Assembly: GCA_018812925.1 (NCBI GenBank)
Contig: JAHJCU010000004.1
Location: forward strand, 432,289-496,288
Reading direction: 5' to 3'
Length of the DNA stretch: 64,000 nt
From: Candidatus Omnitrophota bacterium
GTDB lineage: Bacteria; CAIJMQ01
Of this stretch, positions 18,258 to 63,737 are shown one piece after another (the first letter of the stretch is position 1; each line of letters opens with the position of its first letter). The position numbers and the translations under genes were made by a program. The notes under the pieces are model-generated. The model made no database searches. It worked only from the letters and a program-made list of their open reading frames with translations, and had not been told where the DNA came from.

Positions 18258-18965
18258 TTATATAGCTATTTTTTCGCCTATTTCGAAAGCTTTTTTTAGA
18301 CAATTGGGTTTTTTGTTTATAGCACCCTTACTGTCAATACCGCAGCATAAGAGTTCTGATTTATAGTCGGTATCAATGGTTACAAAGAAATTTTTTACTA
18401 TCGCTTTTGCGTTTTCGAAAAAGTCTTTCCTATCGGATGCTTCAACACATATAAAAGCGCCAATTTTTCTCTTCTTTGCCTTATAGGTTTGAAAAACATT
18501 CTTCGCAAGCCAAAGACACTGGAATCGGTCTATGAACATTTTTGTCTGCGCAGAAACGCTTCCGAAAAATATAGGGGAAGCAAGTATTAGCCCATCCGCT
18601 TTTTTGATTTCTGAGACGATTTTTTGCCAGTCGTCTTTTATAGTACAAACCCCGTCTTTTCTTATGTTTTCGCATTCTTGACAGGGGGAAAACCTAAGCT
18701 CATTCAGTATAATTTTTTTAGTTTTAGCTCCTTTTCTTCTGGCGGCTTCTAAAGCTTTATCCAAAAGGATTTTCGTATTCCCCCCTCTTCTGGGGCTACC
18801 AAGTATTCCGATTATTCTTTTGGCTTTTTGTTTTCTCATTTTCCCTCTGGAATCTTGTAAAGATTCCGAGGACTTAGTCCCTGAAATTCTACGAATGTCT
18901 AGAGGTAATTTTCTATCTTTCATTTTTGATATTTTATATTTGATTTTTAATTTTATATTATCCAT
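18258..18965 (-). CDS. Flavodoxin family / NADPH-dependent FMN reductase
   Basis: GILGSPRRGGNTKILLDKALEAA...CxxC ferredoxin-like cysteines; the first ~45 aa are probably not native. Confidence 0.85.
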   Translation of the reverse strand: MDNIKLKIKYKISKMKDRKLPLDIRRISGTKSSESLQDSRGKMRKQKAKRIIGILGSPRRGGNTKILLDKALEAARRKGAKTKKIILNELRFSPCQECENIRKDGVCTIKDDWQKIVSEIKKADGLILASPIFFGSVSAQTKMFIDRFQCLWLAKNVFQTYKAKKRKIGAFICVEASDRKDFFENAKAIVKNFFVTIDTDYKSELLCCGIDSKGAINKKPNCLKKAFEIGEKIAI

Positions 18966-20014
18966 CCTCCACCGACAACTTTACTTTTATCATAAAAAAC
19001 AACAGCCTGCCCCGAAGTAATGGCTCTTTGAGGTTTATTGAATTTCACTTTTACCAAATCTTTATCCATAGAAGAAATTACCGCCTCGCTTTCTTTGCTT
19101 CCGTATCTTATCCTGGCTTTTACTTTTAACGGTTTTGTTAATTTTTCTATATCTATCCAATTTAGGTTTTTTGCTGTCAGAGTGTCTTGATATAGTTCTT
19201 TCTCTTCACCGATTACTATAACATTTTTCTGCTGAACAATATGAATAACATACATTGGTTTTTTATGAGGTCCTAAACCTTTTCTTTGTCCGACAGTATA
19301 AAACGGTATGCCTTGATGTTTACCCAATATCTCGCTATTGCTATTTACAATCAAACCTGATTTATATGTGTCACCAATGTGATTGATTAAAAACTTATGA
19401 TAGTCACAGCCTGCGATAAAGCATATATCTTGACTTGCCGGTTTATCGTGGACTTTTAATCCTAATTTTTTTGCGAGTTGCCTGACTTCATCTTTCGTAT
19501 AATCGCCAAGCGGAAAAAGGGTATGCTCTAATTGTTTTTGGGATAGAGGAAAAAGAAAATATGACTGGTCTTTTTTTTTGTCTTTGCCTTTTTTTAGAAG
19601 ATATCTTTCGTTTTTCCTATCATATCCAACTTTAGCGTAGTGCCCTGTCGCCATATAATCCGCGCCTAAAGTTTTTGCTTTTTGCAGAAGATCTCCGAAT
19701 TTTATTTCCTCATTACAGACTACGCAAGGGTTTGGGGTTCTCCCTCTTTCGTATTCCAAGCAAAAATATTTTATGACTTTTTCTTCAAATTTTTGCCTAT
19801 AATCAAACGAATAAAACGGAATTCCAAGTTTTTGACAGACAGTTCGAGCATCTTCTGCGCCTTGACTCCCGCAACATTTTCCGGGCTCCTCGGTGTCAAA
19901 AAGTTTCAAGTTTATCCCTATAACTTCATAGTTCGCTTTTACCAATAAACCCGCAGCTACAGAAGAATCCACTCCGCCGCTCATGGCTATAACAACTTTT
20001 TTTTTGCTCAACAT
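18953..20014 (-). CDS. mnmA: tRNA-specific 2-thiouridylase MnmA
   Basis: AMSGGVDSSVAAGLL, TPNPCVVCNEEIKFG, DICFIAG. Confidence 0.97.
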   Translation of the reverse strand: MLSKKKVVIAMSGGVDSSVAAGLLVKANYEVIGINLKLFDTEEPGKCCGSQGAEDARTVCQKLGIPFYSFDYRQKFEEKVIKYFCLEYERGRTPNPCVVCNEEIKFGDLLQKAKTLGADYMATGHYAKVGYDRKNERYLLKKGKDKKKDQSYFLFPLSQKQLEHTLFPLGDYTKDEVRQLAKKLGLKVHDKPASQDICFIAGCDYHKFLINHIGDTYKSGLIVNSNSEILGKHQGIPFYTVGQRKGLGPHKKPMYVIHIVQQKNVIVIGEEKELYQDTLTAKNLNWIDIEKLTKPLKVKARIRYGSKESEAVISSMDKDLVKVKFNKPQRAITSGQAVVFYDKSKVVGGGWII

Positions 20015-20086
20015 TTATCTAAATCCGGTAGTTTTTGTAAATCTACAGTTCTCTTGTTTCCCATTTGCAGGGTGGTAGGTGAGAAG

Positions 20087-22282
20087 TTAGACAATAAGCA
20101 TCATTATCAAGAATGCGGTAAGGATAAAGAACAGAATAGACATTAGAAGTTTTATTAGAGCGATATTCCCACCTAAAATATCGCTTAAACGAACGGCGGT
20201 TGTGCCCCAATATGCCAATATAAAAATTACAATAAGCGGCGCGATAAACATAAGGTTATATATTAGAAGATACGTATAGGCGACGAATCTGTATTCGCTA
20301 ATACCTGTTGCGTAAACAATCGTTGGCAAATATACCTGCCCTGTACATGACAATTCTAATATTGAAACTATAAAGCCGGTAATAAACGCTGCCAAGACAT
20401 ATCTTCTCAAGCCTGCCTGCTCTTTGATGGTAGAGTGTATCCTCCTCTTTAAGAAATCCGGAAGTTGCAGCCACATTTCCTTGGCTTTTCCTCTCTTGCA
20501 CTTAAAATAATCTAATAGGCTCAATATCCCAAGTATTAATGTAAATACTCCCACAATCCCGTATATAAACTTGGTGAAAGTTTTAAGGAAAGACAAATAA
20601 TTTAAAAATTCAAATATTCCTATGCCGATCAAAAAATATGTGATAAATAATGCTGATGTAAAAGCAATACCTACGATGATGATTTCTCTTCCCTTTCTCT
20701 TCAAAATTGCGAGGTAAGAAATGAAAAATATTATTGTTGCAAAGGCACAGGGGTTTATCCCATCCATTAATCCTGCTCCTATTATGGCGAGGACACCAAA
20801 TGAACGCAGTCTATCTACCACATTACCCTCCACCACATCTTTCACTTGCGCTGCTCTCTCTAAAGGCAAGGATGTCCCGTCTTTATATTTATTGATTAAT
20901 TCGGTTAGTTTTTCTTTGGTTATTGACTCTCCCGCCAGAAAATCCTTGCCGATGAAAATCGCTGGGGTCACCATTCTTTTTTCTTCAGGCACACCGTACA
21001 TTTCGCATAAGGTCTCGTTTAGCTGCATATTTTCCCTGGTACTTATGTCATATTCCTTAACTACAACGGCTGGAAATTCCTCTTTGATAGGTCCCAAAAT
21101 ACTATGCACGCGCTCACAATCTAAGCATCCTTTTTCAAAAAAATAACCGATTTCTATTGCTTTTTCTGTTGTTTTTTCTACTACCCGGCCAAAGATATGG
21201 ACTGTTAATTCAGTTTCGCCAGGGCAATTCGTGTATATCTTCACATTTCCTCTGATTGGGCCAGGAGGAACTTCCGGCGCTACACTAAAATCAATCATAT
21301 ATTTTTTAAATTTCTCCAGAGTAATTACTTCTGCGGAAAGATATTTTATGTTGTTTTCTACTCTTAAGACCTCAAAGTTATCGCCTTTTGTAGATATAAC
21401 AACGGATGATGCTTTTTTTGTGCCGGCTGGGACATTGAAGTCTATACGCTCACGAGATAATTTTATATCTCCCAAAATCCTTCCCTGCACTCCTACCAAA
21501 ATAGTCTTCCGTCTTTCCAGATTTGTGCTAACATCAATCCTCCCCTGTAAATATCCCGCGGGAGCATTGCTATCCAGCGTAACTTTTACTGAATAAACGT
21601 TTTTACCCCATTGTTCTCTTTTCTCAACACTGTCTATTTTTAGGTACTCTTTATCAGTTGTCACTTTATCGATTATAAGTTTTTGTTCTCCCCTCTGGAT
21701 TATTTCAAATTGCTTAGTGACTTGTTCGTGTTTGGAAACGTTTTCAAATGAAAGAGTTAGAGGCTTAACCTCAACCTCAATCTTGACTTCTCCCTTCAGT
21801 TGAAGGTCTATGGTAGGATTGATGGGGTCATTGGAATTGACGTGAATAATCTTGGTTTGTTGCCCTATAAAACCTCCTGTTCGGAAAGTAACTCCTATCT
21901 GGCCAAATGCTCCAGGAGCAATTTCCGTATCAGAGGCTTCTGCCTTTGAACATCCACAAGAGGCTTGAACTCTACTAATCTTTAAGGTACTCTCGCCGAC
22001 ATTCTGGAATTTGAAAGCATGAGTTACGTCTTCTCCTTGATATACAAAGCCGAAATCGAATATTGGTTCAGGGAAAGACATGCATGCCTTTGTCGCAGTA
22101 ACTGTGGCATCTGTTTTAGGTTCTGCTCCTAGAGGAATCGAAATGACTAAAATACAAAGCAAAAACAACATAATGGAGGCAAACACTAAGAGCCCCTTCA
22201 TTTTTAATCCTCCTTCAATCATATTTAAAATAATTTTATCATTAGTTGAAAAATCTTTCAGCAGATATTTCTCCCAAAACAA
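20087..22282 (-). CDS. DUF1573 repeats + thioredoxin-like domain + CcdA/DsbD-like membrane domain
   Basis: 731 aa: FDFGFVYQGEDVTHAFKFQNVG..SCGC (DUF1573), FFEKGCLDCERVHSIL (thiol-redox), DGINPCAFATIIFFISYL...ELSCTGQVYLPTIVY (CcdA-like TM). Confidence 0.8.
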   Translation of the reverse strand: MFWEKYLLKDFSTNDKIILNMIEGGLKMKGLLVFASIMLFLLCILVISIPLGAEPKTDATVTATKACMSFPEPIFDFGFVYQGEDVTHAFKFQNVGESTLKISRVQASCGCSKAEASDTEIAPGAFGQIGVTFRTGGFIGQQTKIIHVNSNDPINPTIDLQLKGEVKIEVEVKPLTLSFENVSKHEQVTKQFEIIQRGEQKLIIDKVTTDKEYLKIDSVEKREQWGKNVYSVKVTLDSNAPAGYLQGRIDVSTNLERRKTILVGVQGRILGDIKLSRERIDFNVPAGTKKASSVVISTKGDNFEVLRVENNIKYLSAEVITLEKFKKYMIDFSVAPEVPPGPIRGNVKIYTNCPGETELTVHIFGRVVEKTTEKAIEIGYFFEKGCLDCERVHSILGPIKEEFPAVVVKEYDISTRENMQLNETLCEMYGVPEEKRMVTPAIFIGKDFLAGESITKEKLTELINKYKDGTSLPLERAAQVKDVVEGNVVDRLRSFGVLAIIGAGLMDGINPCAFATIIFFISYLAILKRKGREIIIVGIAFTSALFITYFLIGIGIFEFLNYLSFLKTFTKFIYGIVGVFTLILGILSLLDYFKCKRGKAKEMWLQLPDFLKRRIHSTIKEQAGLRRYVLAAFITGFIVSILELSCTGQVYLPTIVYATGISEYRFVAYTYLLIYNLMFIAPLIVIFILAYWGTTAVRLSDILGGNIALIKLLMSILFFILTAFLIMMLIV

Positions 22283-22317
22283 GGATTAAGTTTTCTCTTA
22301 ATCCTGAATCCTTAATT

Positions 22318-22539
22318 CTATATTGCTTCTACGCTTTTTATCTCTGGGACTTCTTCTTTTAATACTCTTTCGATGCCGGTTTTCAAGGTCATCTGAGCCA
22401 TAGGACATCCTCCGCAGGCACCCGTAAGTTTCACCTTTACAACGCCGTCTTCGCTAACATCCACCAATTGCACATCTCCTCCGTCTGCTTGTAAAAACGG
22501 ACGGATTTTCTTAAGAGCTTTTTCCACTTTTTCTTTCAT
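22318..22539 (-). CDS. NifU C-terminal domain (Nfu-like) Fe-S carrier
   Basis: IRPFLQADGGDVQLVDV...GACGGCPMAQMTLK. Confidence 0.93.
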   Translation of the reverse strand: MKEKVEKALKKIRPFLQADGGDVQLVDVSEDGVVKVKLTGACGGCPMAQMTLKTGIERVLKEEVPEIKSVEAI

Positions 22540-22955
22540 TTTTTTCTCCTCGCCTCGCCGATTTTGGCGGGCTTTTTCTTTAAATAATCATCAATAGCAG
22601 ATTTTAATGCTTCTTCAGCTAACATAGAACAATGCATTTTTATTTGCGGCAATCCGCCAAGCGCTTCCGCAACTGCTTTGTTTGATAAGGTCAATGCCTC
22701 ATCTACGGTTTTGCCTTTCACAAGTTCAGTAACCATAGAACTTGTGGCTACAGCAGCTCCACAGCCAAAAGTTTTGAATTTTGCGTCAACGATTACATTA
22801 TCTTTTACTTTAATGTAAAGCTCCATTATATCGCCACAGACAGGGTTGCCCACATGCCCAATACCATCAGCATCTTTTATTTCACCTACATTCCTTGGAT
22901 TTTTAAAGTGTTCCATCACTTTTTCACTGTATCGCATGCATGTTTTTCCTTTCAA
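22536..22955 (-). CDS. Fe-S cluster scaffold NifU/IscU
   Basis: FKNPRNVGEIKDADGIGHVGNPVCGD..FKTFGCGAAVATSSM..HCSMLAEEAL. Confidence 0.95.
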   Translation of the reverse strand: MKGKTCMRYSEKVMEHFKNPRNVGEIKDADGIGHVGNPVCGDIMELYIKVKDNVIVDAKFKTFGCGAAVATSSMVTELVKGKTVDEALTLSNKAVAEALGGLPQIKMHCSMLAEEALKSAIDDYLKKKPAKIGEARRKK

Positions 22956-23929
22956 TCTACTCTACTATATTCCAACATCCTATCAATTGTTTTTCTCGCT
23001 TTCTGTCTTATCATTTCTTCTACCTTAATTTCGTGTTTCATTTCTTCAAGGGACCAAAGCACCTTCTCCAAACTGTTTTTCTTCATATTTTCGCATATTG
23101 CACGTCCGGAAGCCGGAAAGAATTTTTTATCCGGGTTTTCCTTATCTAACCTGTAAATGATTCCCTCTTCGGTTCCGATGATTATTTCTTTGCTTTTTGT
23201 CTCCTTCGCATAATTAAGCATACCGGTTGTAGAGAATACTTTATCCGCCAGAGCAATTACATCAGGAGTGCATTCGGGATGGACGAGCACTTCGGCAAAA
23301 GGATGCTCTCTCTTGGCTCTTAAGATCTCATCTGCCAAAATTCTAGCATGAATTGGGCAATATCCTTCCCAGAAAATTATTTTTTTGCTTGTCCCGTTAG
23401 AAATCCTTGCCTTTGGTAAAGCGGTCGTTTCTGGCGCTTTATTTCTAACGGGATGAATTTGACTTGCAACATATTGCCCTAAATATTTATCAGGGATGAA
23501 GATGATTTTTTGTGCAGATAAAGAATTCACTATCTTAACAGCATTTGCCGACGTACAGCATACGTCGCTTTCGGCTTTCACTTCTGCCGTTGTGTTCACG
23601 TATGCCACAACAACCGCATCCGGATGTTTTTTCTTTAAATCACGCAGTCCTTCAACATTAATCATGTCTGCCATTGGACAACCGGCGTTTATGTCCGGTA
23701 TAAGCACAACTTTTTCAGGACAAAGAATTGAAGCGGTCTCCGCCATAAAATGAACACCACAGAATACGATTACTTCGGCCTCCGTTTCAGCTGCTTTCTG
23801 ACTCAATCCCAATGAATCTCCCAAGAAATCAGCTATGTTCTGGACTTCAGGCAGTTGATAGTTGTGAACTAATATGACCGCCTTTCTCTTTTTCTTAAGG
23901 TCCTTTATTTTTTGAATAATAGCATTCAT
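22952..23929 (-). CDS. nadA: Quinolinate synthase NadA
   Basis: LVHNYQLPEVQNIADFLGDSLGLSQ, ADVCCTSANA region, GYCPIHARI; carries a ~20-24 aa insertion. Confidence 0.95.
   Translation of the reverse strand: MNAIIQKIKDLKKKRKAVILVHNYQLPEVQNIADFLGDSLGLSQKAAETEAEVIVFCGVHFMAETASILCPEKVVLIPDINAGCPMADMINVEGLRDLKKKHPDAVVVAYVNTTAEVKAESDVCCTSANAVKIVNSLSAQKIIFIPDKYLGQYVASQIHPVRNKAPETTALPKARISNGTSKKIIFWEGYCPIHARILADEILRAKREHPFAEVLVHPECTPDVIALADKVFSTTGMLNYAKETKSKEIIIGTEEGIIYRLDKENPDKKFFPASGRAICENMKKNSLEKVLWSLEEMKHEIKVEEMIRQKARKTIDRMLEYSRVD
23393..23452. repeat. Palindromic element family A inside nadA
   Basis: CCCGTTAGAAAT...ATTTCTAACGGG, 12-bp perfect inverted repeat, 60 bp total (20 codons). Confidence 0.85.
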
Positions 23930-28982: not shown

Positions 28983-29909
28983 CTATCCTTGATAAAGTTC
29001 CGTTGATAAATATCTATCTCCTAAATCCGGCAAAATAACAACAATTAATTTGCCTTTATTTTCTTCTCTTTCGCCAATTTTCAATGCCGCATAAACAGCT
29101 GCGCCTGATGAAATTCCTGCAAAGATTCCTTCTTCTTTGGCAAGTCGTCTGGCAATTGTCATAGCTTCCTCATTAGCTACCTTTACCACTTCGTCAATAA
29201 TGTTTTTATTCAAAACCTGGGGGATAAAACCTGCTCCAATCCCCTGAATTTTATGGGGTCCGGGATTACCTCCCGATAAAACAGCAGAGTCAATAGGTTC
29301 AACTGCAATAGCTTTAAATGATGGTTTTTTCTTTTTTAATACTTCGGCAATTCCTGTAATCGTGCCCCCGGTCCCAACTCCGGCAACAAGAATGTCAACT
29401 TTGCCGTCCGTATCATTCCAGATTTCTAATGCCGTGGCTTTGCGATGGATTTCGGGATTAGCAGGATTTTTAAATTGTTGAGGCATAAACGCTTTTGAAT
29501 TTTTCTTAACAACGTCCTCTGCCCTTTTAATCGCACCGCTCATACCCTCGTTTCCGAGAGTAAGAACAATTTCAGCTCCTAATGCTTTAAGCATATTTCT
29601 CCGCTCAATACTCATCGTGTCAGGCATAGTCAGAATAAGCTTATACCCTTTGACAGCACAAACAAACGCCAATGCTATGCCGGTATTACCCGACGTGGGT
29701 TCTACAATAACAGCGTCCTTTTTCAACAACCCTTGCTTCTCTGCTGCTTCAATCATGCTTACTCCAATGCGGTCTTTTATACTTCCACATGGATTAAAAA
29801 ATTCCAACTTAGCAACAATCTTTGCGTTGATGTTTTTTGCTATCTTACTTAGTCGTACTAATGGTGTATTCCCAACCAGTTCGGTTATATTATTAAAAAT
29901 CTTTGCCAT
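28983..29909 (-). CDS. cysK: Cysteine synthase A
   Basis: [42 protein letters not shown]. Confidence 0.96.
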
Positions 29910-29924
29910 TTTATTACTCTCCTA

Positions 29925-30371
29925 TTAAATATGATACATCTCTATTTTAGTTTCTTTTAATTTCTCTTTTTGTGTCTTTACCATATCTGCTAATGTTACA
30001 GAATCAAGAACATCAACTATTGCTTTTTTCAGTTTCACCCAGATATCTCGAGTAATGCAAATCGTTGTCCTTTTACATAATTTTGGATTATCTACACAAG
30101 AGACAGGCGACATTGAACCTTCAACCGCCTGAATTATCTCGCTCATTTTTATGTCACTTGGTTTTTTTGCCAAACTAAAACCGCCGTTTCTTCCTTGAAC
30201 GCTCATTACTAAACCGCTTGACACAAGGACTCTCATAATATTTTCCAGATACCTTTCAGAAATCTCCTGCCTTTTAGCTATGTCTTTTAAAAGGACGGGC
30301 TGCTCCCCATTATGCATTGCTAAATCCAACATAGCCCTTGTTCCATAACGCCCCCTGGTAGAAAGTTTCAT
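29925..30371 (-). CDS. Rrf2-family transcriptional regulator (IscR/CymR-like)
   Basis: KLSTRGRYGTRAMLDLA; three Cys in CVDNPKLCKRTTIC. Confidence 0.93.
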   Translation of the reverse strand: MKLSTRGRYGTRAMLDLAMHNGEQPVLLKDIAKRQEISERYLENIMRVLVSSGLVMSVQGRNGGFSLAKKPSDIKMSEIIQAVEGSMSPVSCVDNPKLCKRTTICITRDIWVKLKKAIVDVLDSVTLADMVKTQKEKLKETKIEMYHI

Positions 30372-30395
30372 GGTTTTTATCCCTTTAACAACATT

Positions 30396-30444
30396 ATTAT
30401 CATCGTTTTAGTGATAATTATACTATGCTATGAATTTTTGTCAA
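30396..30444 (-). promoter_or_regulatory. Rrf2/cysK operon promoter with overlapping palindrome
   Basis: Minus strand TTGACA (30439-30444), 16 bp spacer, TATAAT (30417-30422); inverted repeat ATTATCA-N9-TGATAAT at 30396-30418. Confidence 0.7.
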
Positions 30445-34517: not shown

Positions 34518-35213
34518 TTGCCTGCCCCCCCAAACAACCTGCTTTGCCTAGCGCGAAGCGAAGCGAGGAATATCTTGGTCTATCTTTCCTTGGGTTCAAA
34601 TATAGGCAACCGCTTAAAAAACATTCAAACCGCAATAAAACTGCTTAAAGAAATTGGTTTTGATATTATAAAAGCCTCTTCCTTATATGAAACCTCGCCT
34701 TGGCCCGTTAGAAGAGATAAACCTGCCCGCCAAATGGGTTCGTTGACAGGCGGGTCTCTAAACGGGCTAAAGATAAAAACAGAGCAACCTGATTTTCTAA
34801 ATCTCGTATTAAAAGGCAAAACAAAATTCTCTCCCGAAGAACTACTTCAAGAAATTAAACAAATAGAAAAAACAATGGGGCGGGAAAAAACAGAAAAATG
34901 GGGACCAAGGATAATCGATATAGATATTTTGTTTTATGAAAAAAAGTTTGTTAACACACGGTTGCTTCAGCCCAGTAGAAGTCCACACCAAAGGCGTAGG
35001 CGACTTACTTCTAACGGGCTACAAATCCCTCACCCTCAACTTCATAAAAGGGCTTTTGTTCTTATACCCTTAAAAGAAATAGCCCCAAATCTTGTACATC
35101 CTGTCCTTAAAAAAACCGTTTCGCAAATGCTAAATGATTTGCCTGCCCGACAAGCAGGCGGGGATGATAAAGGAAGTGTAGTGTTATATAATAAGTTAAA
35201 AGAAATATGTTAA
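34518..35213 (+). CDS. folK: 2-amino-4-hydroxy-6-hydroxymethyldihydropteridine diphosphokinase
   Basis: VYLSLGSNIGNRLKNIQ, QPDFLN, WGPRIIDIDILFY, IPHPQLHKRAFVL; three in-frame insertions; true start may be TTG near 34573. Confidence 0.9.
   Translation: MPAPPNNLLCLARSEARNILVYLSLGSNIGNRLKNIQTAIKLLKEIGFDIIKASSLYETSPWPVRRDKPARQMGSLTGGSLNGLKIKTEQPDFLNLVLKGKTKFSPEELLQEIKQIEKTMGREKTEKWGPRIIDIDILFYEKKFVNTRLLQPSRSPHQRRRRLTSNGLQIPHPQLHKRAFVLIPLKEIAPNLVHPVLKKTVSQMLNDLPARQAGGDDKGSVVLYNKLKEIC
34704..34766. repeat. Family A element inside folK (copy 1), with nested family B-like palindrome
   Basis: CCCGTTAGAAGAGA...TCTCTAAACGGG, 63 bp; nested CCTGCCCGCC...ACAGGCGGG. Confidence 0.8.
34971..35018. repeat. 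Family A element inside folK (copy 2)
   Basis: CCCAGTAGAAGT...ACTTCTAACGGG, 48 bp. Confidence 0.75.
35142..35162. repeat. Family B element inside folK
   Basis: CCTGCCCGACAAGCAGGCGGG, 21 bp, encodes PARQAGG. Confidence 0.75.
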
Positions 35214-35971
35214 CAATACGAAAACCGATAACCGGACACCGTCTTTTATTCTTCATGTTCTTGTCCGTCCTTTTTCTTTCCGGCTGCGCAACTGTCTATA
35301 ACCCTGTTACCAATAAAGATGAATCCACATTAATAAGCGAAAAAGGCGAAATACAGATAGGACAGGAAGCTGCGATATCTTTAGAAAAACAATATGGGCT
35401 CGTTAAAGATACAAAACTTAATAAACATCTAAGCAGCATAGGCAATAAAGTTGCAAAAAAATGCGGGAGACCAAACCTTCCTTATACTTTTAAAATTTTA
35501 AAAACAGATGATGTAAACGCGCTCACTTTTCCCGGAGGAGCAATATATGTTACAGAGGGATTGCTCAAAGAATACGAAAACGATTCCCAACTTGCTAGTG
35601 TTTTGGGGCACGAAATAGGACACGTATGCGCCAGACATATTATTAAAAAAATGGAAGCTCAAATCGGGTATTCGGTTCTTTATGGCATACTGCTCTCTAA
35701 CAGCAAAAAAGACATACAAAATCTTTCAAATACGGCTTTTAGTCTTTTATCTCTTGGGTATTCCAGACAGGATGAATTCCAAGCCGATGAGTTAGGAATA
35801 AAATACGCATACAAAGCTGGTTACGATCCCAACGGAATGGCGGGATTCTTAAAAGTCCTCAAGAAAAACCACAAAAGCAATGCATCTCATATAGATGTCT
35901 TTTTCTCAACCCATCCGCATATAGACGATAGAATAGAACGGTCAGAAGAAATAGCGGGGGAATACAAATAA
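35207..35971 (+). CDS. M48-family metalloprotease, lipoprotein
   Basis: LFLSGCA lipobox; LGHEIGHVCARH (HExxH); DEFQADELGIKYAYKAGYDP. Confidence 0.92.
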   Translation: MLTIRKPITGHRLLFFMFLSVLFLSGCATVYNPVTNKDESTLISEKGEIQIGQEAAISLEKQYGLVKDTKLNKHLSSIGNKVAKKCGRPNLPYTFKILKTDDVNALTFPGGAIYVTEGLLKEYENDSQLASVLGHEIGHVCARHIIKKMEAQIGYSVLYGILLSNSKKDIQNLSNTAFSLLSLGYSRQDEFQADELGIKYAYKAGYDPNGMAGFLKVLKKNHKSNASHIDVFFSTHPHIDDRIERSEEIAGEYK

Positions 35972-35992
35972 GACAGCATAAATGGTAAAGCG

Positions 35993-36063
35993 CCCCGTGG
36001 AATCTACAAGATTCCCGGGACCAAAGTCCTTGAGATTGCTCAGCAATCTCTAAGGGTAAAGCG
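35993..36063. repeat. Three-hairpin intergenic repeat (family D), copy 1
   Basis: CCCCGTGGAATCTACAAGATTCCCGGGACCAAAGTCCTTGAGATTGCTCAGCAATCTCTAAGGGTAAAGCG. Confidence 0.9.
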
Positions 36064-36161
36064 TAATTTTTCTATTGTGAGTTATTTGTTTATTACTATT
36101 TACGAATTACTGATTACTGTTTACGGTTCTTGAATTACCATTTACCAATTACGAAAAGCAC

Positions 36162-37004
36162 ATGAAAATAATTAAAAAACCTTACAAACTTACGGCGAGA
36201 ATAAAAGCCATCAAAAAAAACGGGAAGACCGTCGGTTTCGTCCCAACGATGGGCTCGCTCCACGAAGGACACATTTCGCTTATTAAAAAAGCGCGAAAAG
36301 AAAACGAAATTGTGGTGTTAAGTATCTTCGTCAACCCAACCCAGTTTGGCCCGAAAGAGGACTACAAAAAATACCCGCGGAATTTTTCTCGTGACAAAGC
36401 CATCGCTAAAAAAGCAGGGGTTGATATTGTTTTTGCGCCGTCTGCAGAAAACATGTACCCTGAAGGAGTTTCAACTTGCGTAGAAGAAACAAATCTATCT
36501 AAAATTCTTGAAGGTGCAATCCGCCCGGGTCATTTTAAAGGTGTTACAACAGTTGTGTTGAAATTATTCAACATCGTCCAGCCGGATATAAGTTATTTCG
36601 GTCAGAAGGATTATCAGCAGGCAGTCATAATAAAGAAAATGGTAAAAGACCTGAATTTAGACACCAACATAAAAGTCCTGCCGACAGTTCGGGAAAAAGA
36701 CAGTCTTGCGCTAAGCTCAAGAAATATATATCTCAACCAGGAAGAAAGAAAATCTGCAACAATTCTTTGTCATTCATTAACCTCCGCCAAGAAATTAATA
36801 GAAAACGGTTTGACTAATACCGAAGAAGTTAAGAAAAAAATACGGACAATGATAAAAAAAGAAAAAATCAGCGGCATTGACTATATCGAAATAAGAGAGC
36901 TCGAAACACTGCAACCCGTTAAAAAAATAACTGGGAAAGTGGTAATATTACTTGCCGTTAGAATAGGAAAAGTGCGATTGCTCGACAATATGATAATTAA
37001 ATAG
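36162..37004 (+). CDS. panC: Pantoate--beta-alanine ligase
   Basis: GFVPTMGSLHEGHISLI, FVNPTQFGPKEDY, FGQKDYQQ. Confidence 0.97.
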   Translation: MKIIKKPYKLTARIKAIKKNGKTVGFVPTMGSLHEGHISLIKKARKENEIVVLSIFVNPTQFGPKEDYKKYPRNFSRDKAIAKKAGVDIVFAPSAENMYPEGVSTCVEETNLSKILEGAIRPGHFKGVTTVVLKLFNIVQPDISYFGQKDYQQAVIIKKMVKDLNLDTNIKVLPTVREKDSLALSSRNIYLNQEERKSATILCHSLTSAKKLIENGLTNTEEVKKKIRTMIKKEKISGIDYIEIRELETLQPVKKITGKVVILLAVRIGKVRLLDNMIIK

Positions 37005-37015
37005 TAGAGACGGAC

Positions 37016-37513
37016 ATGAAAGTAGCATTAGATACAAATTGCTTTATCGATGTAAATAATCCAAACTCATCTACATATTCTTCGCTTTCAAAAATCTTTG
37101 AGTTAGCCAACAAAGGGAAAATAGAGCTATATATAAGTCGACATACATTAGACGAGTTATCTAAAAAACCTGATAGGGCATATGCACTTGCAAAAACAAT
37201 AACTATTTTGTCATATTGGCCTGTTGGTTCATGGGACGATCTCGTGGGAACATGGAAAGATTTAACCGGCACTTGGGATGATATCGGTCGCAATAATTTA
37301 ATTAAAGAAGAAATAAAAAATCTTGCAAAATCTGGTACAAGTATCCGCGATCAAGGTGCATATATTGATTCATTACATTCGAAAATTGAGTTTTTTATAA
37401 CTTCTGATAAAAAGATGGCAAAATCAAATCCTGCTAAAAGACTTTATGAAAGATTTGGGTTGAAAGTAATAACGCCAAAAGAGGTTTGCGATAAATTTTT
37501 TAATTATGTTTAA
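37016..37513 (+). CDS. PIN-domain protein
   Basis: MKVALDTNCFIDV start, conserved acidic positions, FITSDKKMAK; internal GSWDDL/GTWKDL/GTWDDI repeat. Confidence 0.75.
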   Translation: MKVALDTNCFIDVNNPNSSTYSSLSKIFELANKGKIELYISRHTLDELSKKPDRAYALAKTITILSYWPVGSWDDLVGTWKDLTGTWDDIGRNNLIKEEIKNLAKSGTSIRDQGAYIDSLHSKIEFFITSDKKMAKSNPAKRLYERFGLKVITPKEVCDKFFNYV

Positions 37514-37561
37514 CGAAGAACAAAAGAAAAAATTATTGAGAATTGCTCGGCAAACGATAGA
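37506..37561 (+). pseudogene. Fragment of AMMECR1 gene 5' end
   Basis: MFNEEQKKKLLRIARQTIEI matches MLNEEQKKKLLNIARQTIET of the AMMECR1 gene at 40660; start codon overlaps the upstream stop in both copies. Confidence 0.85.
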
Positions 37562-37627
37562 GATTAGTTTCAAAAGTGTGGCTGATTGATAAACTTATAA
37601 TATGATACTTAAGAAACAGGCGTTCCT

Positions 37628-38404
37628 ATGAATAAAAACCTTCAAACTCTTCTAAAAAATGAACTCTCTCCAATCAGGACTTCGATAATATTTATAATGC
37701 TGTTTTCTATTGTCTTTGGTGTTATGTCTTTTATCTTTAGACAAACCAATCAATGGGCATCTGGGTTTTTAGTAAATTTATCAAGTGGGTTAGCTGTAAT
37801 AGTTATTGTTGTTGTTTCCATTGATAAATTATTACAATCGCAAGAGAACAAAAGAAGACAAAAGGTTGAAAGATGTGCGTTGAGAATCATTAGAGAAGTG
37901 CTAGGTAGGTATTTCGAGTTTATTCTCTCTCTAAAGAACGACACGGGAAAAGATATTTACTATGATATTAGATCATCTTTTGACGAGAATTATTATAAAA
38001 TGATTTCGGAATTTGATTTTTCTACTAAAAGCCAACACATATCGGGTTACAATTGGTATTACTTTGTGCATTATAATAAGAACAATTTATGTAATGGGTT
38101 AAATAGTGTTTTGGACAGGTATGTCTCGTTTTTAGATGAGAAATTTATTACTTTAATAGAAGACCTGAAAAAATCTTCGCAATATTTACTCCCCGTTGCA
38201 ATATTTGATTTCGCGATAAAATCTAGAGAATGGGGAGACCAGGCTAAATATATTTTTAAACAAGAAGGAATGCTGGAACTCTATAAAAATCATATTAACA
38301 AGTTGATATCAACCTTAGATTACTATAATTCAAGGGTGGCTGATAATGAAAAGATAATTAAATCGCAAGTAACTTCATATAAAGCAAAAGTATTAAAAAA
38401 CTAA
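37628..38404 (+). CDS. Hypothetical two-TM membrane protein with cytoplasmic domain
   Basis: 258 aa; two N-terminal TM helices then soluble alpha-helical region; no family recognised. Confidence 0.6.
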   Translation: MNKNLQTLLKNELSPIRTSIIFIMLFSIVFGVMSFIFRQTNQWASGFLVNLSSGLAVIVIVVVSIDKLLQSQENKRRQKVERCALRIIREVLGRYFEFILSLKNDTGKDIYYDIRSSFDENYYKMISEFDFSTKSQHISGYNWYYFVHYNKNNLCNGLNSVLDRYVSFLDEKFITLIEDLKKSSQYLLPVAIFDFAIKSREWGDQAKYIFKQEGMLELYKNHINKLISTLDYYNSRVADNEKIIKSQVTSYKAKVLKN

Positions 38405-38408
38405 AATT

Positions 38409-40667
38409 ATGAATCTAAAAGAAGAATTGTTTGGGAAATTGGATTTTAAGAAAATTGGCATAAATCCTGATTTCAAGGAAGATAGCGTCAGGGAAGTAAT
38501 AATACTGCCCATACTTCGTAAATTAGGATATACGCAAGATAACATCGTCCGCAGTAAGACATTGGAACATCCCTTCTTGAAAATCGGAAGCAATAAAAAA
38601 ATCCCAATAAAATTAGTGCCTGATTATTCGCTTAAGGTCGCTAATAGTTTTGCATGGGTTCTTGACGCAAAATCACCCGACGAAAACCTTAATGACGATG
38701 ACAACATCCAGCAGGTTTACTGCTACGCTTCTCACCCTGAAATACGAAGCACATATTTTGCTTTATGTAACGGATTGGATTTTGTTTTATACCGCACACA
38801 ACAAACAAACGAGCCGATATTCAGATTCCCGATTGACGAGGCAGACCATTACTGGGAAAAACTTAAAATGTTTTTGTCGCCCGATAGTTTTCAAGTCGGG
38901 AAAAATGTAGTTTATGAAAGAACTGCCGATTATGTAAGAGCAAAAGGTGGATTTGATTATGCTACTCGACCTTTACTTGAAGAAATCCCCGCGAAAAAAC
39001 AGCAAGCTAAAAGACATTTTGGAGTTCACGGATATTTTACAAAACAAGCATGGAATGTGGTTGCTGATTATATTAAAAATCTCAGTAAACCTGGGGACTT
39101 AGTTCTTGACCCTTTCGGAGGAAGTGGAGTTACTGCGGTAGAAGCAATGATGAATAATAGAAAAGCGATAAGCATTGACATTAACCCGATGGCTGTTTTT
39201 ATTGTTCAGTCACTTATCGCCCCCGTAAAACAGAGCGAGATATCCGATGCTTTTCAAAGAGTTAAGAAAGAATACTTGCAAAAAGAGCCCAAAACAAAAG
39301 AAGAAATACAGAAAGCGTTAAAAAAATATCGTTACCCAAAAGGTTATCAATTGCCAAAAGGTTCCGATGTCGGAACAGTGGAACAACTCTTTAGCAAAAA
39401 ACAATTGGCACAGTTAGGACTATTAAAATCAATAATTCTTAAAGAAAAAGAAGAAAATATTAAAAATTCTTTATTGTTAGCATTCTCAAGCAGTGTAAAT
39501 AAGTTCAATTTAACTTTTCACTATACTCGAAGCGAAGGTGGTGGCGACAGTGGAGCATTTAGATATTATCGATATAGAATGGCACCTGAACCCGGCGATT
39601 TAGATTTGGTGAAAATTTTTGAAACTAAATATAAGCGAGTAGTGAGTGCCAAAAAAGAAATGGAGTATTTCATCAATAAAAACACCATAAAGGATATCCA
39701 AATTAAAAAAGGAACTGCAACGGACTTAAAGAATATTCCAAAAGAAAGCGTTGATTATATTTACACTGACCCGCCTTATGGTAAGAAAATACCATATTTG
39801 GATTTATCCGTAATGTGGAATGCTTGGCTGGATTTACCGGTTACAAGACAGGATTATGAGCAGGAAGCGATAGAAGGCGGAGAGAGGGAGAAAAGTAAAA
39901 AAGAATACAACGAGTTAATCGCTCAAAGCATAAAAGAAATGTATCGCGTATTAAAGCTTGACCGCTGGATGTCGTTTGTATTCGCCCACAAAGACCCTGA
40001 ATTTTGGCATTTGATAATTAACACTGCAGAAGCTTGCGGGTTTGAATATGAAGGAGCAGTTCCTCAAAAGAATGGACAAACAAGTTTCAAAAAACGCCAG
40101 CATCCGTTTACGGTACTTTCTGGACAGTTAATAATAAATTTCCGTAAAGTCCGCAATCCAAAAGCGATAATGAAAGCGAATCTTGGAATGAATATCGCTG
40201 AAATAATTATGCAAACGATTGAGGGGATAATCGCTAAAAACAGCGGCGCAACACTTGAGCAGATAAACGATGAGTTGATAATTAAAGGGCTTGAATTGGG
40301 CTTTCTTGACTTGCTTAAAAAAGAATACTCTGACCTTACGCCGATTTTAATGGAGACGTTTGATTACGATGAGAAGAAAGAAGTATTTACGATTAAACAC
40401 AAATTCAAGACGGGGGTTGATGTAAGATTGCGGATTAGGTATTACTTGTTGAGTTATTTAACAAGAATGGAAAGAGAAAGGCATAACCCTACTTTTGATG
40501 AGATTGTTCTTTATATTTTACCTTTACTTAAAAACGGAACAACACCGGAAAATCAAACGATATCAAGCGTTTTGGAAGATATCGCACAACATGTCGGGAA
40601 TGATTGCTGGAAGTTAAAAAGTGGCGGTGGTTATTTAGAATTAGGATTAGATGCTAAATATGCTTAA
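38409..40667 (+). CDS. HsdR_N-like nuclease domain + adenine/cytosine-N DNA methyltransferase fusion
   Basis: N-term REVIILPILRKLGYT...PDYSLKVANSFAWVLDAKSP (PD-(D/E)xK-like), then VLDPFGGSGVTAVEA and YTDPPYGK methylase motifs. Confidence 0.8.
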   Translation: MNLKEELFGKLDFKKIGINPDFKEDSVREVIILPILRKLGYTQDNIVRSKTLEHPFLKIGSNKKIPIKLVPDYSLKVANSFAWVLDAKSPDENLNDDDNIQQVYCYASHPEIRSTYFALCNGLDFVLYRTQQTNEPIFRFPIDEADHYWEKLKMFLSPDSFQVGKNVVYERTADYVRAKGGFDYATRPLLEEIPAKKQQAKRHFGVHGYFTKQAWNVVADYIKNLSKPGDLVLDPFGGSGVTAVEAMMNNRKAISIDINPMAVFIVQSLIAPVKQSEISDAFQRVKKEYLQKEPKTKEEIQKALKKYRYPKGYQLPKGSDVGTVEQLFSKKQLAQLGLLKSIILKEKEENIKNSLLLAFSSSVNKFNLTFHYTRSEGGGDSGAFRYYRYRMAPEPGDLDLVKIFETKYKRVVSAKKEMEYFINKNTIKDIQIKKGTATDLKNIPKESVDYIYTDPPYGKKIPYLDLSVMWNAWLDLPVTRQDYEQEAIEGGEREKSKKEYNELIAQSIKEMYRVLKLDRWMSFVFAHKDPEFWHLIINTAEACGFEYEGAVPQKNGQTSFKKRQHPFTVLSGQLIINFRKVRNPKAIMKANLGMNIAEIIMQTIEGIIAKNSGATLEQINDELIIKGLELGFLDLLKKEYSDLTPILMETFDYDEKKEVFTIKHKFKTGVDVRLRIRYYLLSYLTRMERERHNPTFDEIVLYILPLLKNGTTPENQTISSVLEDIAQHVGNDCWKLKSGGGYLELGLDAKYA

Positions 40668-41232
40668 CGAAGAACAGAAGAAAAAATTATTAAATATTGC
40701 TCGCCAGACTATAGAAACATACATCAAAGAAAGAAAAATTGCTAAATTTAGTGAGGATGACCCCGAACTTTTAAAATCTTATGGCACTTTTGTAACCTTA
40801 AGAAAAACCGGACGAAACAAAATCATAGACGACGAAGAATCTCTTAGGGGTTGTATAGGGCATATTATAAGCAAGGAGCCACTTTATAAGGTTGTGAGGG
40901 ATATGGCTATTGCCTCAAGCACCCAAGACCCCAGATTCCCTCCTGTTACCACGGATGAACTCAAAGACATAAAAATAGAAATATCTGTTCTTTCTATTCC
41001 TAAATTAATAAAAGATATTAAGGAATTTGAACTTGGTAAGCACGGCGTGATTGTTCAGAAAGGTTTTAATCAAGGCGTGTTTCTGCCGCAGGTTGCCACG
41101 GAAACCGGCTGGAGCAAGGAAGAATTCCTATCAAATCTCTGTTCTCACAAAGCCGGACTTTCATCTGATGCGTGGAAAGATAAAGATACAAATATCCATA
41201 TATTCGATGCGCAGGTGTTTGGGGAAGAATAA
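40660..41232 (+). CDS. AMMECR1 domain protein
   Basis: SLRGCIGHIISKEPLYKVVRDMAIASSTQDPRFPPVT; ORF track start 40651, ATG at 40660 preferred. Confidence 0.92.
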   Translation: MLNEEQKKKLLNIARQTIETYIKERKIAKFSEDDPELLKSYGTFVTLRKTGRNKIIDDEESLRGCIGHIISKEPLYKVVRDMAIASSTQDPRFPPVTTDELKDIKIEISVLSIPKLIKDIKEFELGKHGVIVQKGFNQGVFLPQVATETGWSKEEFLSNLCSHKAGLSSDAWKDKDTNIHIFDAQVFGEE

Positions 41233-41832: not shown

Positions 41833-41944
41833 TGAATTTGTAAACGGTAATTCGTAAATCGTAATCCGTAATTTTTTAATTACCATTTACCGATTACTAA
41901 TTACTAACTACGAATAATTGTGTTATGGAACACAATTATTACAT

Positions 41945-51888: not shown

Positions 51889-53226
51889 TCATTCTTCACT
51901 TGAAAAAGATAGGTCCTCAAATTTCGTGTATTGCTTAATGAAAGCTAGTTTTATAGTTCCGGTTGGACCGTTTCTCTGTTTGGCTATATTTAGTTCTGCT
52001 ATTCCCTCTAACTCCTTATCGTCGGGCTTATAATACTCTTCCCTTAATAACAGCATCACTACGTCGGCGTCTTGTTCTAACGCCCCGGATTCTCTTAGGT
52101 CTGAAAGTATCGGACGGCGGTCATCTCCACGTGTTTCGACCCGACGGGAAAGTTGAGAGACCGCAATAACCGGGATGTGCAATTCTCTGGCTAAACCTTT
52201 TAAAGCTCGAGATATTTCAGCTATTTCCTGCTGGCGATTTTCGAAGGCGGTTCCCGAACTCATAAGTTGTATATAGTCTACAATAACAAGAGAAATATCT
52301 TGTTTTGCTTTTAACCTTCTTGCTTTAGCTCTTAGTTCTAAAGCATTAAGAGTGGATGAATCGTCTATAAATATCGGAGCATCAAAAAGAACCCCCGCAC
52401 CTATTGATAATTTGGGCCCGTCTTCCTCCGCCAAATATCCCGTTCTCAATTTATGTGAATCAACCCTCGCCTCCATACAGAGAAATCGCTCTGCCACTTG
52501 CTCCTTCGACATTTCCAAAGAAAACATTGCGACAGGCTTTTTTTCTTCCACAGCAACATTTCTTGCAATAGTTAATGCTAAACTCGTCTTTCCCATAGAG
52601 GGTCTGCCTGCAATGATTATAAGTTCGGGAGAATGAAGCCCTGAAGTCTTTTCGTCCAATTTTTTGAATCCGGTGGGCAATCCCGCAATATGAAGCTTAT
52701 TTCTAACAAGTTCGTCTATCATTTCCCCAGAAATGAGGTCTTTTATAGATACAAAGCCGGAGGAAATTTTCTGTTGAGCAATATTAAAGATGTTCTGCTC
52801 TGCTTTATCGAGGAGCTTGGAGCCATCTTCTTTGCCGGCATAGCATTTGCCTATGATATCCGAAGAGACCTCAATAAGCTCTCTTAAAACAGCTTTTTCT
52901 CTAACGATTGTCGCATAATGTTCTATATTTGCAGGAGTTGGGATTGAGGATAAAAGAGTGCTTAAAAAGGAAGCCCCGCCTATTTTTTCCAACTCGCCTT
53001 TCTTTTTTAGTCGGTCGGTAAGAGATATTATGTCTACAGGCTTATCGTCACTATAGAGGTCTAGTATTGCTCTAAAAATCAACTGGTGCTCTTTACTATA
53101 AAAATGCTCCGGTTTTAATTTTTCACCTGCAACATCTATTAGATTTTTATCCAGCAGAATAGAACCCAAAACAGCAATTTCCGCTTCTATATTTTGAGGT
53201 GGAACTCTATCAACAGAATTTTTCAT
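51889..53226 (-). CDS. dnaB: Replicative DNA helicase
   Basis: PPQNIEAEIAVLGSIL, IIAGRPSMGKTSLALTIA, SDLRESGALEQDADVVMLL. Confidence 0.98.
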   Translation of the reverse strand: MKNSVDRVPPQNIEAEIAVLGSILLDKNLIDVAGEKLKPEHFYSKEHQLIFRAILDLYSDDKPVDIISLTDRLKKKGELEKIGGASFLSTLLSSIPTPANIEHYATIVREKAVLRELIEVSSDIIGKCYAGKEDGSKLLDKAEQNIFNIAQQKISSGFVSIKDLISGEMIDELVRNKLHIAGLPTGFKKLDEKTSGLHSPELIIIAGRPSMGKTSLALTIARNVAVEEKKPVAMFSLEMSKEQVAERFLCMEARVDSHKLRTGYLAEEDGPKLSIGAGVLFDAPIFIDDSSTLNALELRAKARRLKAKQDISLVIVDYIQLMSSGTAFENRQQEIAEISRALKGLARELHIPVIAVSQLSRRVETRGDDRRPILSDLRESGALEQDADVVMLLLREEYYKPDDKELEGIAELNIAKQRNGPTGTIKLAFIKQYTKFEDLSFSSEE

Positions 53227-53288
53227 AATACCTTTCGCTTATTTTATTAGTAACAAAATTTCATCTTAAGAGGATCTCGGTGTTCCAA

Positions 53289-53843
53289 TTAAACTGTTCC
53301 AATTTCCTTTTCTTTCTCTTCTAAACTCTTGTTGATTTTTTCTATATAATTGGAAGTCAGGTGTTCAAGTTCTTTTAGTCCTCTTTTTGCGTCATCTTCA
53401 GAAATATGCTCTTCTTTTTCCGTCTTTTCGATGTCTTCTTTTGCTTCTCGTCTTTTGTTGCGAATGGACACTCTTGCTTCCTCGGTTATTCTATGGACTA
53501 TTTTGATAAGTTCCTGCCTTCTTTCACTGGAAAGAGGAGGAATCGGGATTTTAATTACTTCCGCTTCCATTGAAGGCACTAATCCCAAGTCAGCCTTGAG
53601 AACTGCGTCTTTAATTTCGCTCATTGCGGCTTTGTCCCAGGGTTTTATAATAATTAATCCTGGGTCTGCGGTTACGGTTGCCAAATGACTGATGGGGGTT
53701 GGCGTTCCGTAATAAGCAACTCTAATATTATCAAGAAGCGCAGGCGTTGCCTTACCTGTTCTTATAACACTAAATTCATGGTTGAGATTATCAAGGCAGT
53801 GTTTCATCTTTTCTTCTATTTTTTTAAGAATATCTTTAATCAT
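53289..53843 (-). CDS. frr: Ribosome recycling factor
   Basis: FSVIRTGKATPALLDNIRVAYYGTPTPISHLATV. Confidence 0.97.
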   Translation of the reverse strand: MIKDILKKIEEKMKHCLDNLNHEFSVIRTGKATPALLDNIRVAYYGTPTPISHLATVTADPGLIIIKPWDKAAMSEIKDAVLKADLGLVPSMEAEVIKIPIPPLSSERRQELIKIVHRITEEARVSIRNKRREAKEDIEKTEKEEHISEDDAKRGLKELEHLTSNYIEKINKSLEEKEKEIGTV

Positions 53844-53929
53844 TGTTTAGCGCCCTCCTTTATAATAAAATCAAAAATTAAACATCAAATATTAAAAATA
53901 CAAAGCAAAAATAAAATATTCTTAATTTT

Positions 53930-58581: not shown

Positions 58582-58639
58582 GATATTTAATTTCGTAAAT
58601 CGTAAATGGTAATCGGTAATTAGTAATTTTTTAAAATTA

Positions 58640-58710
58640 CGCTTTACCCTTAGAGATTGTTGAGCAATCTCAAGGACTTTGGTCCCGGGAATCTTTTAGA
58701 TTCCACGGGG
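58640..58710. repeat. Three-hairpin intergenic repeat (family D), copy 2 (opposite orientation)
   Basis: Reverse complement differs from copy 1 at only two positions over 71 bp, both in hairpin loops. Confidence 0.9.
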
Positions 58711-58757
58711 CTATTTACGGATTACCGGTTACAAAAAATAAGCATCAGTTTGTTTTT

Positions 58758-60873: not shown

Positions 60874-60945
60874 CTAATCCTTCCCTGTCCGCCTGAATTT
60901 TTTGCGGGTGTTTCTTATTTTTATTATTAACGGGATTCCTTCCAA
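60874..60945 (-). pseudogene. Duplicated der 3' end
   Basis: Reads LEGIPLIIKIRNTRKKFRRTGKD*; 30 bp (60916-60945) identical to der positions 62204-62233. Confidence 0.85.
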
Positions 60946-60948
60946 TTA

Positions 60949-61389
60949 TTATAAATACTCAGGAAATTCTGCTTTAATTTTATCTCTAATAAATTCTACA
61001 AAGGACTCTGTTTCTTTGAAAAGTTCTTCCGCTTCTTTATCGGATACTACGCCTGCCCTGTCATAGTCGGCGATGTTTCTCTTTTTTCTGGAACGGTCAA
61101 GATAATCTATAACGCTAATATGTTCCTTCCCCAAGATATCTCTTAAAGCTGTCCATGTTGTATAGTGGTGGCTTTCTGTTGCAGGCTTGTAGCCACAGCA
61201 ATAAAGTAGCGCAAGTCCTGCCTGAAAAGCGGCGTTGTAGGTTATGTTGAATTTTCTGTCTGCCGAAAGGTTTTCGAGCGAAGCGTCTTGAATATCCCTG
61301 TTAATCAGATTAAAAATATCTCTTATTTCTTGTTTGCTGGTTTGATGTTTTTTGAGCTTCCCCACGCTATACCAATTCTCTAAGGTCAT
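60949..61389 (-). CDS. HEPN-domain protein
   Basis: 146 aa helical, AFQAGLALLYCCGYKPATESHHYTTW, RKKRNIADYDRAG; partner of MNT gene. Confidence 0.75.
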   Translation of the reverse strand: MTLENWYSVGKLKKHQTSKQEIRDIFNLINRDIQDASLENLSADRKFNITYNAAFQAGLALLYCCGYKPATESHHYTTWTALRDILGKEHISVIDYLDRSRKKRNIADYDRAGVVSDKEAEELFKETESFVEFIRDKIKAEFPEYL

Positions 61390-61948
61390 TTTTCGTTCCT
61401 TTCAGGAAAATTTTCGGTTCTTTTAAAACTGTTGTTATAAAATGGTTGTGAACTTTTCTTTTTTGCTTGAACTCTTCAGGCGGGAAAATGGTGCAGTTGA
61501 TTTCTCTTCTTAATTCTTTTTCCGACTGTATGATTACTTTCTGTAAATCTTTTAGAGTGGCATCGCCGATTATGAATAAATCGATATCGCTGGATAGGTT
61601 CTCGCTGTTTTTGGCATAGGAGCCGTAAATAAAAGCGATTTGGATATTTTCGTAGCCCTTAACTAAGGATTTTAATTTGTCGCCGATGCCTGCGGTTTTG
61701 AGAATAATACTTTTCAGTTCGGAAAATAACGGGAAATCTTTGTTAACTGAATAATATTTTCTATTAGCTTCTGTTTCTATGTTTAGCAGTCCCATTTTCT
61801 CAAGGTTTTGGAGTTCTCTTCTGATGCTGGTATAAGGCGTTTTTAAAAGTGATTCAATCTGCCGAGGATAATAGCTGTTGTTCGCGTTTATTAAGAAAAG
61901 CTTAAGCAAGTCTATTCGGGTTTTGGAAGAAAGTAGAGAAGTTAACAT
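61367..61948 (-). CDS. wHTH + minimal nucleotidyltransferase (MNT)
   Basis: N-terminal winged helix; AFIYGSYAKNSENLSSDIDLFIIGDA nucleotidyltransferase motif. Confidence 0.85.
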   Translation of the reverse strand: MLTSLLSSKTRIDLLKLFLINANNSYYPRQIESLLKTPYTSIRRELQNLEKMGLLNIETEANRKYYSVNKDFPLFSELKSIILKTAGIGDKLKSLVKGYENIQIAFIYGSYAKNSENLSSDIDLFIIGDATLKDLQKVIIQSEKELRREINCTIFPPEEFKQKRKVHNHFITTVLKEPKIFLKGTKNDLRELV

Positions 61949-63607: not shown

Positions 63608-63730
63608 TTTTTTCGTAATCAGTAATTAGTAATCGGTAAATGGTAATTAAAGAACCATAAACAGTAATTAACTAATCCAAAAAATTTTTAAAGTTACAGT
63701 TTACGCTTTACGAGTTACCAGTTACGAAAC
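63608..63730. repeat. GTAATTNGTAAATNG-type intergenic repeat
   Basis: TCAGTAATTAGTAATCGGTAAATGGTAATT ... ACGCTTTACGAGTTACCAGTTACG; related stretches at 11720-11780, 36065-36155, 41836-41915, 58588-58735. Confidence 0.6.
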
Positions 63731-63737
63731 TTAACAA

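Follow-up and report, generated by a model that had tools for sequence, protein, structure and literature searches.

The 5' end of AMMECR1 is present twice in a stretch of 64,000 nucleotides (the window) on contig JAHJCU010000004.1 of a Candidatus Omnitrophota bacterium (GCA_018812925.1), whose genome comprises 1.47 Mb in 14 contigs. The genes at this locus are arranged in the order panC, PIN gene, AMMECR1 fragment, two-transmembrane (2-TM) gene, nuclease-methylase gene, AMMECR1 and smpB, and only the PIN, 2-TM and nuclease-methylase genes lie between panC and the complete AMMECR1. No integrase or transposase was found in this cassette by Pfam searches and inspection of the open reading frames (ORFs) between panC and AMMECR1. 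We compared the genome (G000) with two congeners (G001 and G002) and with a member of the same family (G003). The features of the locus were as follows.

34920–40895, no strand assigned: tract strongly divergent from G001 (second half of folK, M48, panC, the cargo and the AMMECR1 5' part); the flanks are collinear at 90–97% identity
36162–37004, + strand: panC (pantoate-beta-alanine ligase; Pfam PF02569, E = 2e-109), left border of the hotspot, adjoining AMMECR1 in G002
37016–37513, + strand: solitary PIN-domain protein with its stop over the ATG of the fragment (PIN_3, E = 1.2e-5, and PIN_12, E = 6.7e-5, both under the curated cut-offs)
37501–37561, + strand: direct-repeat copy 1, the AMMECR1 5'-end fragment (scar), 85% identical to 40655–40715
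37562–37627, + strand: spacer before the 2-TM gene, with no promoter-like site above the scan threshold
37628–38404, + strand: orphan 2-TM protein of 258 aa, GC 30%, with N-terminal hydrophobic helices at about residues 17–37 and 46–66 by hydropathy
38409–40667, + strand: one-chain nuclease-methylase (N6_N4_Mtase, E = 3e-19; residues 1–160 with a PD-(D/E)XK fold)
40655–40715, + strand: direct-repeat copy 2, at the start of the complete AMMECR1, from the repeat search
40660–41232, + strand: mosaic AMMECR1 (PF01871, E = 5e-56), nearer to G003 over 40660–40895 and nearer to G001 over 40896–41232

The repeat search aligned 37501–37561 with 40655–40715 over 61 nt at 85% identity, without gaps and with a spacing of 3154, and the pair had an E value of 2.7e-13 in a self-BLAST of a 14-kb window. 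In a translated search of the whole genome, AMMECR1 matched nothing but the full gene and this fragment (76% over 25 aa). The preliminary description had matched position 37506 to the AMMECR1 start at 40660, and this proved to be a real AMMECR1 5' end at exactly those coordinates. The homology begins about 5 nt before the ATG and stops at 37561; the frame of the fragment (37506–37589) reads MFNEEQKKKLLRIARQTIEISFKSVAD and then reaches a stop. The overlap of each ATG with the upstream stop, also noted previously, was read directly at the gene ends: PIN ends in TAT GTT TAA and the methylase in TAT GCT TAA, each overlapping the ATG of an AMMECR1 start. For the longest AMMECR1 frame a start at 40651 is possible; the relatives favour 40660. 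In promoter and terminator scans, sites were no more numerous than in shuffles. The 15% difference between the copies ruled out an assembly error as the source of the repeat.

The cassette is absent from G002, in which about 15 bp separate the panC stop from the AMMECR1 ATG, and this empty site supports its reading as an insertion. Two genes fill this position in G003, for a 165-aa membrane protein and for a 290-aa hydrolase-like one; in G001, AMMECR1 directly follows a type III mod/res pair. The site occupies a single contig in G000, G002 and G003 and two contigs in G001, where panC is followed by an unrelated ORF on the other contig; we infer that panC and AMMECR1 are physically linked there. 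Because the site is empty in G002, holds different cargo in G003 and a type III system in G001, gene content marks the panC–AMMECR1 junction as an integrase-free cargo hotspot. The hydrolase gene of G003 opens with the 12 nt that begin AMMECR1, ATGCTTAACGAA (L036 10401–10420), and the stop of the membrane gene overlaps the hydrolase start in the same fashion; this is possibly a very short form of the same scar.

PIN was found beside AMMECR1 in no relative. Searches for orthologues of the PIN and 2-TM genes covered the genomes of 145 relatives, in which PIN had no orthologue and gave a single weak match (E = 2.6e-4, in G125). PIN may once have been joined to AMMECR1, a proposal read only from the junction with its stop/ATG overlap.

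The complete AMMECR1 combines two parts of different history. Over nt 57–240, identity was 76% between G000 and G001 and 89% between G000 and G003, and over nt 241–570 it was 96% and 87%, respectively. A maximum chi-square test placed the breakpoint at nt 234–237 (0 of 20,000 permutations, p < 1/20,000), and Fisher's test gave 1e-11. Genome pairs without G000 showed identities of 77/86, 72/80 and 70/79 for the two parts. Because this ratio is nearly constant, G000 rather than G001 was probably the recipient of the exchanged DNA.

The divergence from G001 extended well to the left of AMMECR1. Identity between G000 and G001 was 90–95% in gap, pgk and secG, fell to 79% in folK, 69% in M48, 80% in panC and 78% in the AMMECR1 5' part, and rose to 96% in the AMMECR1 3' part and 93–97% from smpB to gyrB; the lasting drop within folK starts near 34,920. 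Inside the tract G000 was closer to G003 than G001 was by 2–8 points, and outside it (gap to gyrB) the same difference was 0–1.5 points. These profiles indicate that homologous recombination swapped a block of about 6 kb in which the cargo lies, with this genome as the probable recipient. As this block exceeds the cassette, the scar may predate the swap, and its origin may lie in the donor lineage or in another event. The preliminary description had a unit of about 3.15 kb entering with its own AMMECR1 front end. In support of this, the start of the complete gene differs in history from the rest; the exchanged stretch also holds panC, M48 and half of folK, and the whole block may have entered with the scar included. 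Further stretches at 79–86% identity to G001 amid 92–97% occur at 18325–23914, 29006–30444 and 51891–53899, a pattern that suggests many block exchanges in the window.

The structure of the AMMECR1 site recurs in this genome. We scanned 400 kb of this contig against itself, with controls of 200 kb each from G016, G018 and Escherichia coli MG1655, and found six gene-end duplications around co-oriented cargo in the 400 kb and none in the controls. Four are at 3' ends, namely those of an RND-type transporter (76 nt, 80%), a HAD-like hydrolase (86 nt, 85%; both named from their translations), a 115-aa protein (90 nt, 90%) and der (65 nt, 88%), and two are at 5' ends, those of AMMECR1 (61 nt, 85%) and a 77-aa membrane protein (57 nt, 96%). 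The automatic rule returned seven direct and no inverted cases and missed the 77-aa membrane protein. The cargo comprises a beta-lactamase-fold protein, DUF4019, DUF1573, two HEPN-MNT-like pairs and the nuclease-methylase, and half of the scars (3/6) enclose no recognisable defence gene. The der site lies within the window.

60881–60945, − strand: parallel scar, der 3'-end fragment, 88% identical to 62167–62231
60949–61948, − strand: paired HEPN and MNT genes, with der on one side and its 3' fragment on the other (Pfam HEPN/Polbeta; PADLOC candidate PDC-M05B/M05A, E = 4e-46 and 8e-55)

The parallel drawn earlier between this site and AMMECR1 holds for the build, and its defence-like cargo is shared by only some such scars. 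The place of the der cargo is taken by a 510-aa protein in G001 and by nothing but a zinc-ribbon-like protein in G003. The 5'-end copies of the 77-aa membrane protein gene (G000:C11:570255-570311 and 571344-571400; L101) surround the second HEPN-MNT-like pair, and the stop of the last cargo gene is again supplied by the start region of the next gene. The 3'-end duplications of the transporter, the HAD-like hydrolase and the 115-aa protein (G000:C11:198569-201941, 212514-214530 and 222981-225372; L086, L087) enclose the beta-lactamase-fold, DUF4019 and DUF1573 cargo. At the transporter site G001 has the same fragment but 11 kb of other cargo; scars can therefore be old, with cargo turning over inside them. 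In the distant genome G007, which shares only the domain, a 402-aa glycosyltransferase-like gene (named from its translation) separates a MEMO-AMMECR1 fusion from a 96-nt duplicate of the fusion's 3' end, at 89% identity (L038 9831-9926 and 11262-11357). The window also contains intergenic AT-rich repeats of TTTAC/ATTAC steps (11740, 36086–36158, 41837–41917, 58592–58634 and 63612–63731) and an 86-nt inverted pair at 95% identity (35985–36070 and 58633–58718).

The nuclease-methylase has 752 aa, with PDY at residues 71–73, DAK at 86–88 and the methylase motifs DPFGGSG (234–240) and TDPPYG (453–458); PDY, (D/E)AK and the methylase motifs were kept in all five aligned sequences. A structure model of residues 1–178 reached a pLDDT of 84 (83–94 in the block of the first 160 residues), and its best PDB matches were DrdV, HsdR, BsaXI and BpuSI (DrdV: E = 7e-4, probability 1.00, TM-score 0.53). 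The model of the whole enzyme was poor (pLDDT 48), and the N-terminal domain alone was usable. By motifs and predicted fold, the protein has the build of a type IIG enzyme, with a PD-(D/E)XK nuclease and a methylase in one chain, and the cassette is most likely to act as a one-chain restriction-modification enzyme, predicted to methylate its own DNA and to cut unmethylated DNA. Full-length relatives at 50–71% identity occur in diverse contexts, such as between ruvA and ruvB (G062) and between aceE and aceF (G161). Those at 70–71% are on phage or prophage contigs, one between terminase and portal genes on a phage contig (L103) and one next to a serine recombinase in comM (L104); all these neighbours were named from translations. 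The gene appears to form a self-contained unit by itself. Around the relatives in G062, G161 and G336 no gene-end repeats are present, and the cassette therefore has no fixed duplication habit. Because its homologues mostly stop a few residues sooner, its stop was probably shifted onto the AMMECR1 start. For the 2-TM protein, nothing close was found in the 145 genomes, IMG/VR viral contigs or PLSDB plasmids; as a guess, it is a membrane partner or an unrelated passenger. The codon-usage comparison suggested in the preliminary description failed to separate the cassette, and GC content set apart only PIN (32%) and the 2-TM gene (30%), against 37%.

We favour, with a probability of about 0.58, a hotspot shaped by one-sided, homology-anchored integration, that is, homology-facilitated illegitimate recombination (HFIR), together with block exchange. 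Foreign DNA would enter the junction through homologous recombination for which the conserved genes on either side serve as anchors. For DNA carrying the 2-TM gene, the nuclease-methylase and an AMMECR1 5' part, the anchor would have lain within AMMECR1, and the opposite end of this DNA would have been joined, with no extended homology, to a point about 56 nt inside the resident gene. One complete AMMECR1 would have been kept, and the old 5' end would have been left isolated behind PIN. Crossovers in folK and in AMMECR1 would have moved the stretch from mid-folK to AMMECR1 nt 236 from one lineage to another, either in this event or in another one. The one-sided joining and the order of events are what we infer from these structures. 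Exchange at the flanking core genes carries high weight, and HFIR as the origin of the scar carries moderate weight because the exchanged block is larger than the cassette. The mosaic structure of AMMECR1 at first seemed to prove one-sided joining here, a claim that we lowered when panC, M48 and folK showed the larger tract against G001; because the divergent tract reaches folK, one-sided joining in this genome is a proposal.

Several observations weigh against this interpretation. An ordinary double crossover could bring in the whole block with an old scar. In tree-topology tests on both AMMECR1 parts the best tree switched in line with the mosaic but without significance, the first 56 nt of the complete AMMECR1 are not specially G003-like (48/56 with G003, 49/56 with G001), and the fragment is barely nearer to G001 (49/56) than to G003 (46/56). 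The donor sequence upstream of the 2-TM gene, where any microhomology of the junction would lie, was not found. No copy of the resident AMMECR1 nt 57–236 is left, as HFIR would predict, although whole-block exchange confounds this observation. ComEC and DprA, encoded in the genome, count in favour, yet E. coli and other bacteria have them too. Of the automatic scar hits, seven in all, five are clear and two are probably intergenic repeats, and the 600 kb without gene-end scars come from few controls.

The main rival explanation, which we consider unlikely, is that the cassette inserted itself with duplication of a target of about 61 bp and that the mosaic AMMECR1 reflects a later, independent exchange; survivors would show duplicated gene ends since only those leave the gene intact. 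Restriction-modification systems are reported to insert with long, variable target duplications in the order of 100 bp (PMC3874152; PMC1643837), the cargo is a nuclease-methylase and G002 has the empty allele. Yet the copies are 15% apart, against differences of 3–10% between G000 and G001 in the neighbouring genes, the exchange border falls within the same gene, and other scars lack restriction genes. In the scars that were read, moreover, the homology ends at or before the gene end or a few bases past it, as if the copies came from two genomes. More doubtful is a dedicated or unusually active insertion route of this lineage, still unrecognised and without its own integrase, that would place one to three genes at conserved gene ends and leave direct repeats of 57–90 bp.

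Slightly less probable again is a Campbell-type single crossover of a circularised fragment with a short AMMECR1 5' end, giving an H-cargo-H order. Such events made lacZ end duplications of 109–950 bp in E. coli (PMC3240628), but here the right copy is donor-like to nt 236 whereas the left copy, which should reach at least the crossover point, ends at nt 56; HFIR accounts for both ends and the single crossover of a circle would not. It is very improbable that the fragment is the remnant of an ancient tandem AMMECR1 duplication to which cargo was added later by chance. Some distant genomes have two AMMECR1 copies, but G001, G002 and G003 have one each, and the same architecture is present at der and four other genes of unrelated function.

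HFIR has been proposed for the type VI secretion system (T6SS) immunity arrays of Vibrio cholerae (PMC5361080) and measured in E. coli (PMC3240628). As in HFIR, whose other end is joined without extended homology, one homologous anchor lies beside foreign genes with displaced gene-end remnants. Unlike the HFIR cases, the anchor gene here is complete, the old end is only 56 nt and the donor junction was not seen; at the non-anchored end of an HFIR product, 3–10 bp of microhomology are expected. The exchange border expected inside the anchor gene is present (nt 234–237) and may instead be the border of the larger block. In the papers found, HFIR and gene-end duplications come mostly from selection experiments or a few pathogens, and here one small environmental genome has six scars within 400 kb, and for one of them the exchange borders are mapped; therefore, integrase-free entry of cargo into core-gene junctions can be read from sequence.

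The locus also resembles hotspots exchanged at flanking core genes (PMC5635113) in its varied cargo between the same core genes, its lack of an integrase and its excess of flanking exchange (69–80% in folK–panC and the AMMECR1 5' part vs 90–97% outside), and differs from them in borders mappable inside folK and AMMECR1 and in an embedded gene-end fragment. Insertion with long target duplication was proposed for restriction-modification genes of Helicobacter pylori (Nobusato et al. 2000, as cited in PMC1643837 and PMC3874152). There too, a direct repeat of a neighbouring gene encloses a nuclease-methylase, and an empty allele exists elsewhere; the mechanism expects identical copies at formation, whereas the AMMECR1 5' end, single-copy in G002, is present in G000 in copies 85% identical, and the complete gene is a mosaic. 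The enzyme shares with the type IIG enzymes DrdV, BsaXI and BpuSI a PD-(D/E)XK nuclease ahead of a DNA methylase in one chain; unlike DrdV (about 1012 residues, PDB 7lo5) it has 752 aa, its relatives stand singly in operons or phages, and it is known from sequence and predicted fold. Cargo at such a site should not automatically be called a mobile defence element. This type of scar is unusually frequent in this genome, yet it fits the known kinds of DNA exchange.

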